NCBI GenBank assembly: GCA_021738405.1
Contig: JAIPCC010000006.1
Span: 1 to 55,638 of the forward strand
Origin: Crocinitomicaceae bacterium
Lineage (GTDB): Bacteria > Bacteroidota > Bacteroidia > Flavobacteriales_D > Crocinitomicaceae
Reading direction: 5' to 3'
DNA length: 55,638 nt
The notes under the pieces: generated by a model
What the model was told of the DNA's origin: nothing
The model's input: only the letters and a program-made list of their open reading frames with translations
Databases searched by the model: none
Position numbers and translations under genes: made by a program
Part shown: positions 47,545-49,003 of the stretch, piece after piece
Position numbering within the stretch: position 1 is the stretch's first letter
Layout of the letters: each line of letters opens with the position of its first letter

Positions 47545-47640
47545 GGCTTAAATCGACATTAGGTTGAACCACTAAATTAAAAGAAATAAACTATCTTGCT
47601 TTGCGCATGCAACTTTTTCAAATCAAAATACGTCAGTGCT

Positions 47641-47648: not shown

Positions 47649-48179
47649 ATGGAGGAACAAGAACTCATACAAGATTGTATTGCTGCTCGTCCGAAGGCTC
47701 AAAAAGCGTTGTTTGACATTTATGCCCCCAAGCTTTACGTCGTGTGTTTGCGTTACATGAAAGACCAAATGCGCGCACAAGACGTCTTGCAAGATGCCTT
47801 CGTTAAAATTTTTGCCCATATTGGCAATTACAAATCGGAGGGTGCTTTTGAAGGTTGGCTCAAAAAAATTGCAGTCAACACCTGCCTTGACCAACTCCGC
47901 AAAGACAAAAAACTGCTCACAGATGTCTCTTTAGACGACGTCTCGCACAAATTAGCACACCAAGACTACAGCGTAGAAAAACTCATGGCAGACGACCTGC
48001 TCAAATTGGTTCAGGCGCTGCCAGACGGTTACCGCACAGTCTTCAACCTTTTTGCCATCGAAGGCTATTCGCACCAAGAGATTTCCGTGCAACTCGGTAT
48101 CTCTGAAAGCACCTCCAAAACACAATACTTGCGCGCAAGGGCCTATTTGAAAGACCGTATAGAAAACATTGACAAATGA
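47649..48179 (+). CDS. ECF-type RNA polymerase sigma factor
   Basis: A 176-residue sigma-70 family protein with only regions 2 and 4. Region 2: CIAARPKAQKALFDIY, MKDQMRAQDVLQDAFVKIF and EGWLKKIAVNTCLDQLRK. Region 4: LVQALPDGYRTVFNLFAIEGYSHQEISVQLGISESTSKTQYLRAR, the helix-turn-helix that reads the -35 site (only described here by its ends and positions 115-165). It overlaps the next gene as ATGA (48176-48179), and that product has the layout of a membrane-anchored anti-sigma factor, so the pair probably forms an envelope-signal switch. The regulon is unknown. Confidence 0.93.
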   Translation: MEEQELIQDCIAARPKAQKALFDIYAPKLYVVCLRYMKDQMRAQDVLQDAFVKIFAHIGNYKSEGAFEGWLKKIAVNTCLDQLRKDKKLLTDVSLDDVSHKLAHQDYSVEKLMADDLLKLVQALPDGYRTVFNLFAIEGYSHQEISVQLGISESTSKTQYLRARAYLKDRIENIDK

Positions 48180-49003
48180 CAGAAAAAGACAACATCAAAG
48201 ATCTATTTGCCAAAGGCCTCCAGGACCACCAAGTCCAGGTAGACCCCGCGCTATGGACGTCAATTTCTTCGTCCATTGGTGCCGGTGCGGCAAAAACTGG
48301 CCTTGGCCTATTTGCCAAAACGCTTATCGGTGTTGCGGCTACAACAATTGTTGCGGGCACAGTCTATCTCTCGTTTGAAACAAAAAGTCAAGAAGTCAAA
48401 AAGCAAGTAGTTCAAACACCTCAACAAACCAGCAAGTCAAAAGAAGACAAAAAAATCACCCATACAGCACCAACTAAACCGACTTATCAAACTTTCTCTT
48501 ACGATCCGCCTGCACTAGGATGCTTTGAAATCAATGACGAGCTTTTTATTCCTGATTTTGACGCGCTATATAGTTCAGGTGCTCCTATAGAAGAGCCATC
48601 ATTAACGTCAGGTATCGAACCGCACGCCGTACCAGAAGTCATTCCAACCCAAGCCCCAGTAGTTCAACCAATTGTTGCGCCTACTCAACTTGACCCACAA
48701 CAAGAAGCGCAAGCCAAAAAGCCAACGCGCATTGCGCTACCCAATATTTTTACACCGAATGGAGACGGACAAAACGAGACACTACAAATAGATTGGGGTA
48801 GTAATGCCATTCAAGATTTTAGCATTGTTGTGCTCGACGCCAAAAACAACGTCGTTTTCAAAAGCGACAGGCCCGATTTCAACTGGGATGGCACTGATTT
48901 AGGAGGCGAAAAGCTGCCGCGTGCGCACTACATCTACTTTGTATCAGCACTTCTCGATGGCCAAAAATGGCAACAATCCAGTAGCTTACAAATCCAATAC
49001 TAA
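48176..49003 (+). CDS. Anti-sigma-like membrane protein with gliding-motility-type C-terminal domain
   Basis: A 275-residue protein. Residues 1-42 are cytoplasmic and contain LFAKGLQDHQVQVDPALWTSI, like the short N-terminal sigma-interaction segments of Bacteroidota anti-sigma-like proteins. Residues 45-66 are a single TM helix; there is no cleavable signal peptide. A proline/threonine/glutamine-rich linker (68-185) spans the periplasm. Residues 186-275 form a CHU_C/T9SS type B-like domain with LPNIFTPNGDGQNE and FNWDGTDLGGEKLP. That domain normally marks proteins exported by the T9SS, but here it is tethered to the inner membrane and coupled to an ECF sigma gene. Sensor/anti-sigma function is inferred from context and topology. 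Confidence 0.72.
   Translation: MTEKDNIKDLFAKGLQDHQVQVDPALWTSISSSIGAGAAKTGLGLFAKTLIGVAATTIVAGTVYLSFETKSQEVKKQVVQTPQQTSKSKEDKKITHTAPTKPTYQTFSYDPPALGCFEINDELFIPDFDALYSSGAPIEEPSLTSGIEPHAVPEVIPTQAPVVQPIVAPTQLDPQQEAQAKKPTRIALPNIFTPNGDGQNETLQIDWGSNAIQDFSIVVLDAKNNVVFKSDRPDFNWDGTDLGGEKLPRAHYIYFVSALLDGQKWQQSSSLQIQY

Follow-up and report, generated by a model that had tools for sequence, protein, structure and literature searches.

A sigma factor operon of Crocinitomicaceae encodes a probable Dma-like anti-sigma factor with a T9SS cargo-like tail and has a predicted regulon of T9SS cargo genes

The window analysed here is the whole stretch of 55,638 nucleotides (positions 1 to 55,638 of contig JAIPCC010000006.1, assembly GCA_021738405.1) from a Crocinitomicaceae bacterium, whose genome (G000) comprises 2.16 Mb in 91 contigs. 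It carries an ECF sigma factor gene and, overlapping it by ATGA, the gene of a membrane protein, with the following features.

47608..47635, + strand: predicted autoregulatory ECF promoter, TGCAACTT-N16-GTCA, with -35-like TGCAAC and -10-like CGTC.
47649..48179, + strand: ECF sigma factor gene, 176 aa (Pfam Sigma70_r2, 2.8e-16; Sigma70_r4_2, 1.7e-15).
48176..49003, + strand: predicted gene of a Dma-like membrane-tethered anti-sigma factor with a CHU_C tail, 275 aa.
48176..48304, + strand: putative cytoplasmic sigma-binding module, residues 1-43 (profiles A2/A3; beside sigma in 103/103 class loci).
48305..48373, + strand: transmembrane (TM) helix, about residues 44-66 (hydropathy scan).
48374..48733, + strand: low-complexity periplasmic tether, residues 67-186 (length kept, identity lost).
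48734..49000, + strand: C-terminal CHU_C/type B CTD-like Ig domain, residues 187-275, lacking the R[WY]G turn of cargo (Pfam, cargo CTD alignment, AF2 and Foldseek).

The architecture given in a preliminary description of this locus, namely an ATGA overlap followed by an N-terminal domain, one TM helix, a linker and a CHU_C tail, proved accurate by open reading frames, Pfam/NCBIfam and hydropathy. The best NCBIfam matches of the sigma factor are generic ECF models, under their equivalog cut-offs. In the membrane protein, CHU_C is essentially the sole Pfam domain found (residues 187-272, 53.3 bits against a cut-off of 27); the tail is also matched, barely over the cut-off of 35, by TIGR04131 of NCBIfam (36.5 bits), and it resembles FlgD_ig in Pfam as well. 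The protein has a single hydrophobic stretch, around residues 45-66, and the roughly 43 residues preceding it are unlike a Sec signal peptide. The residues P, E, Q, S, T, K, A, G, N and D make up 72% of the tether. No Pfam or NCBIfam family matched residues 1-43, no ASDI, zinc-finger or FecR domain was found in the protein with Pfam and NCBIfam at E values up to 1, no OMP beta-barrel was matched in Pfam, and the N-domain profile run against PDB sequences gave only a TM-driven match. An AF2 model of the L032 sigma factor fused to its N-domain (with TAA read as Gly) had a mean pLDDT of 34 and was uninformative on contact.

The sigma gene, the N-domain and the tail co-occur in 36/36 family-level loci with a complete match, well above chance. 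Among these loci, identity to the window is 47-98% for the N-domain and 44-85% for the tail, whereas the tether is only 6-20% identical in all except the closest relatives and nonetheless keeps a length of 115-149 aa (the tether comparison leaves aside two loci, one truncated at the end of its contig and one misread by regex). Because the ends are constant while the tether drifts at a fixed length, the protein would fit a tethered sensor.

The N-domain, with the core LF-x3-L ... E-x-x-V-x-P-x-L-W-x2-I, marks a Bacteroidota-wide family beside ECF sigma genes. Its profile matched in 110/295 Bacteroidia genomes and a broader profile in 167/199 Bacteroidales genomes; every one of the 103 loci fetched from the class search has an ECF sigma gene immediately upstream in the same orientation, and one strong match of a later set (L177) has no sigma gene in the stretch searched. 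CHU_C tails are present in 77/103 class loci, some with a PKD domain before CHU_C; among the other 26, those scanned bear outer-membrane beta-barrels (PF13505/PF13568) and others are short. A single N-domain profile thus recovers both proteins with CHU_C tails and proteins with barrels. No tether of the class set is shorter than 129 residues, the length of its shortest member. In addition, the N-module, about 35 aa long, occurs as two or three copies in tandem before the TM helix in one genus (g70; L065, L067, L078, L083, L099 and L100), which may provide several sigma-binding sites per anti-sigma factor.

This architecture has characterized counterparts. The Dma anti-sigma factors of Bacteroides thetaiotaomicron (Dma1/Das1 and Dma2/Das2) consist of an N-terminal anti-sigma domain, a TM helix, a disordered tether and a C-terminal barrel and lie beside an ECF21 sigma factor (PMC13088901), and EcfO-Reo of B. 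fragilis and Phocaeicola vulgatus has the same barrel-tailed architecture (PMC13114119, PMC9308784); deletion of the Dma or Reo anti-sigma genes activates their sigma factor (PMC13088901, PMC13114119, PMC9308784). These systems share with the present pair the upstream ECF sigma gene, one TM helix, a long tether and a beta-rich C-terminus, and the N-terminal anti-sigma domain is probably common to both, as judged from architecture and synteny. They differ in the tail, an outer-membrane beta-barrel in Dma and Reo but a CHU_C/type B CTD-like Ig domain here, and in the regulon, which comprises nigD, PUL or LPS genes there and predicted T9SS cargo here. With the ECF sigma neighbour, the TM helix and the long tether (its disorder judged by composition) present and the barrel absent, the protein of the window is a Dma-like variant without the defining barrel. 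It is very probably an anti-sigma factor: its N-domain has an ECF sigma gene as neighbour in nearly all cases, and the barrel-tailed relatives match the published Dma and Reo proteins. The preliminary description had likewise taken it for an anti-sigma factor and had suggested a search for the same fusion beside ECF sigma genes in other Bacteroidota; the linkage in all 103 class loci and the likeness of the barrel-tailed relatives to Dma and Reo bear out the former, the pair is conserved in relatives at both family and class level, and the fusion was found far beyond close relatives, in the CHU_C-tailed class loci counted above. Class I anti-sigma factors (ASDI) neighbour only 6% of Bacteroidetes ECFs (PMC7406223), and other anti-sigma classes are therefore to be expected. 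Among open-access papers we found no report of a CHU_C-tailed anti-sigma factor.

We then compared the tail with the cargo CTDs of the same genome. Type B CTD cargo, which works with PorP/SprF-like shuttles, has a homologous CHU_C domain at the extreme C-terminus, in the same genome and in the same predicted regulon; the sigma-linked tails differ in apparently lacking a Sec signal peptide, in lacking R[WY]G and in lying behind a TM helix and a predicted sigma-binding module. The cargo CTDs carry [NDS]-R-[WY]-G and a penultimate glycine in 20/20 cases, and with RWG in 5/6 further CHU_C matches, R-[WY]-G occurs in 25/26 other CHU_C proteins of the genome. The one without it (L231, G000:C54:31100-32100) is an 800-aa protein with a weak CHU_C match (32.5 bits) that reads as PorZ-like. 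In an alignment of 101 sigma-linked tails, R[WYF]G is found in 0/33 family and 0/68 class tails and the penultimate glycine in 0/33 and 45/68, respectively; the final R of cargo CTDs is kept in 40/68 class tails, and the PN-x-D-x-x-N, W-[DN]-G and G-x-Y features are retained. The AF2 model of the tail (pLDDT 79.5) has four strands and resembles the sheet, also four-stranded, that a study of Flavobacterium johnsoniae predicted for type B CTDs (PMC12618676); in the same study, mutating any one of five conserved motifs of the type B CTD of SprB abolished secretion, and R[WY]G may be one of these five. Foldseek searches with the tail returned PorZ, PorU, FlgD and RemZ among other Ig/Fn3-like folds, at modest scores. 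Because R[WY]G is absent, as is the penultimate glycine in the window's family, the tail is probably not exported, and we infer that such tails are probably non-working sorting signals.

Upstream of the sigma start, GCAAC-N18-GTC occurs at identical spacing in 35/35 family loci checked, at a distance of 36-61 nt, and looks like an autoregulated ECF promoter. By the logic of autoregulation, TGCAAC-N18-GTC would be read by this sigma factor, and another ECF sigma factor could read it. Class-wide, a looser motif was present in just 24/103 loci, mostly at other spacings, and the exact motif upstream of sigma is rare outside Crocinitomicaceae; because of this poor class-wide match, the regulon claim is confined to Crocinitomicaceae.

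A search for TGCAACYT-N16-GTCW in six genomes of the window's genus gave 31 sites, six of them sigma promoters. At 10 of the 25 others a CHU_C cargo gene follows within 3 kb on the same strand, at an 11th (L262) the cargo gene is cut by the contig end at its CTD, and two more precede type A cargo (Por_Secre_tail), so that 13/25 lead to T9SS cargo; four precede a LuxR-type gene, not cargo. The usual target operon consists of the promoter, a gene for a small secreted protein of 124-134 aa and a gene for an RWG cargo of 750-840 aa, and most of the predicted target cargo consists of type B CTD proteins that are 560-1750 aa long. The search was replicated in ten genomes of five other genera, where 12 of 19 non-sigma sites stand before an operon encoding a protein that ends in a type B CTD, RWG-positive in every case, and a 13th (L313) was cut by the fetched stretch. 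As a control, compared by hand, the six genomes of the genus were searched with wrong spacings of 12-15; of the 32 sites obtained, a single one has cargo within 3 kb, and it sits inside a coding ORF (10/25 vs 1/32, Fisher p = 6e-4). A rough model with a 2% chance per site gives 2e-11, a value that is indicative only, because related genomes do not contribute independent sites. Motif and position in six genera together predict a regulon that consists mostly of T9SS cargo operons.

This predicted regulon lends independent support to the link with the T9SS that had been proposed for the pair, and the link is the stronger because the anti-sigma factor's sensor and the regulon products share a domain family. 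As a functioning cargo signal, the role that such a C-terminal domain normally has, the tail is not supported: the R[WY]G of nearly all cargo CTDs is absent, and in the window's family the penultimate glycine too. The further proposals of the preliminary description, that the tail may contact the T9SS as a decoy or sensor and may free the sigma factor when secretion is blocked or overloaded, stay candidate mechanisms. New beyond the preliminary description are these tails without the R-[WY]-G turn and the ECF-type promoter before both the sigma gene and T9SS cargo operons.

Two systems in which ECF sigma factors are tied to the T9SS invite comparison. PorXY-SigP of Porphyromonas gingivalis, together with PorA, also has a CTD-bearing protein that feeds into sigma activity (PMC7712824); however, SigP works with PorX/PorY and drives T9SS machinery genes, whereas the present sites precede cargo genes, and PorA is a separate secreted CTD protein, whereas the present tail is fused to the anti-sigma factor. 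The SM6 ECF regulon of Flavobacterium psychrophilum likewise joins an ECF promoter class with T9SS genes (GldN, PorU and a homologue of a PorM/PorN-interacting protein) and holds one sigma/anti-sigma pair, THC0290_1774/1773; its listed targets are largely machinery, in contrast to the cargo predicted here (PMC9723704).

With somewhat more confidence than doubt, we favor a model whereby an autoregulated ECF sigma factor is controlled by a membrane-tethered Dma-like anti-sigma factor, in which the cargo-like tail, itself not exported, links the activity of the sigma factor to the handling of T9SS cargo. By family and synteny, residues 1-43 would hold the sigma factor at the inner membrane, and the TM helix and the flexible tether of about 120 residues would put the Ig-like domain, with its type B CTD fold and probably not exported, into the periplasm and perhaps within reach of the outer membrane. 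Free sigma factor is predicted to read TGCAAC-N18-GTC at its own promoter and at T9SS cargo operons, often with a small secreted partner gene. From the anti-sigma factor, the cargo-like tail and the predicted regulon, the most likely function would therefore be to couple synthesis of a T9SS cargo set to a periplasmic cue legible to a cargo-like domain. The state that the tail reads would be one of type B handling by the T9SS; the candidate cues include a shuttle, translocon or cargo in a free or occupied condition, and the cue may raise or lower sigma activity. A bolder extension, which we hold only tentatively and would not yet back, is that anti-sigma factors with a non-exported mimic of the type B signal are widespread in Bacteroidota and read the state of shuttle or translocon, with cargo transcription following secretion capacity as in flagellar/type III coupling.

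Genomes without a T9SS bear on this model. SprA is present in 286/295 Bacteroidia and 189/199 Bacteroidales genomes and in that of the window, and because it is near universal, a test on presence or absence of the T9SS has little power. None of 13 T9SS-less genomes has a CHU_C match over the cut-off, and 11 keep N-domain matches, the same profile matching barrel-tailed proteins beside ECF sigma genes there; because Bacteroidales are mostly barrel-tailed whether or not a T9SS is present, lineage may explain the missing CHU_C. The beta-barrel tail serves the same role in other lineages, and a T9SS-like fold is therefore not required of the family. Two candidates for SprA-less genomes, G256 and G377, were rejected as assembly gaps (86 and 32 CHU_C matches).

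The best-surviving alternative, which we nevertheless regard as unlikely, makes the tail an Ig-like domain that senses envelope stress in general from the periplasm and has no contact with the T9SS. Cargo genes would then belong to the regulon because the response is to remodel the surface, much as relatives with barrel tails alter O-antigen, NigD proteins or vesiculation. Published accounts give outer membrane stress or glycans as what Reo and Dma sense (PMC13088901, PMC13114119, PMC9308784), and the loss of R[WY]G, the FlgD_ig similarity and the several Ig/Fn3-like folds returned by Foldseek would all suit such a sensor; however, the tail is specifically CHU_C, follows a PKD domain in many relatives as in cargo, and is the same kind of domain that the regulon encodes, and truly T9SS-less genomes keep the N-domain without CHU_C tails. 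It is more improbable still that the T9SS or a PorP-like shuttle recognises the tail and inserts or holds it at the outer membrane or surface, so that the protein spans both membranes in a Dma-like manner, the T9SS replacing the barrel as outer anchor. PorP-like proteins do hold type B CTDs at the surface (PMC9143113), the tether is never under about 115 residues, with a class-set minimum well above that, and outside the window's family many tails keep the penultimate G and the final R, but R[WY]G is missing from all tails compared, the glycine is lost too in the window's family, and mutation of a single conserved motif in the SprB CTD was enough to abolish secretion (PMC12618676). Finally, that the membrane protein is ordinary T9SS cargo or a positive co-regulator, translationally coupled to sigma by chance, is hardly credible: although sigma binding by the N-domain is read from sequence and Pfam/NCBIfam hold no anti-sigma model for it, the sigma linkage is complete in the class loci, a cytoplasmic module of 40-odd residues before the TM helix is not a normal signal peptide, and the forms with barrels correspond to proven anti-sigma factors, the loss of which by deletion activates sigma.

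By our analysis, a common answer to the control of Bacteroidota ECF sigma factors may be a single compact module in the cytoplasm combined with interchangeable sensors (barrel, CHU_C, PKD-CHU_C and short tails), and the predicted regulon ties the CHU_C version to T9SS cargo. Many Bacteroidota seem to control certain surface-protein genes through a membrane switch that, at its outer end, looks like the export tag of the proteins concerned; this suggests that gene expression and protein secretion are linked by feedback. Now that the promoter, the target operons and the domain boundaries are defined, the coupling of T9SS secretion to cargo expression becomes testable outside Porphyromonas.

Several minor observations concern the predicted regulon and its relatives. 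In four genomes of the genus, the motif lies about 107 nt upstream of a LuxR-type regulator gene (L258 (G000:C80), L253 and L277). Small secreted proteins of 124-154 aa are encoded directly before the cargo gene in many predicted operons (L263 (G000:C50:107900-111300), L264 (G000:C77), L311, L320, L324 and L326); the two that were scanned have no Pfam match, and such a protein is possibly a cargo-specific periplasmic partner. The predicted-regulon cargo CTDs (L209, L229 and L308-L326) mostly have a final strand like EKHGFVVLKY or GHGFLHLVR, and many other type B cargos of the genome (L212, L215 and L220-L224) end in [ST]GH[VL]NL[LI]R; the two end types may mark different shuttle classes. G000 also holds a second sigma/N-domain pair (L107, G000:C86:5300-7619), the tail of which is CHU_C-like and strongly diverged, and several other proteins with similarly diverged tails have a sigma promoter composed of GGCAACC, a shorter spacer and CGTC.
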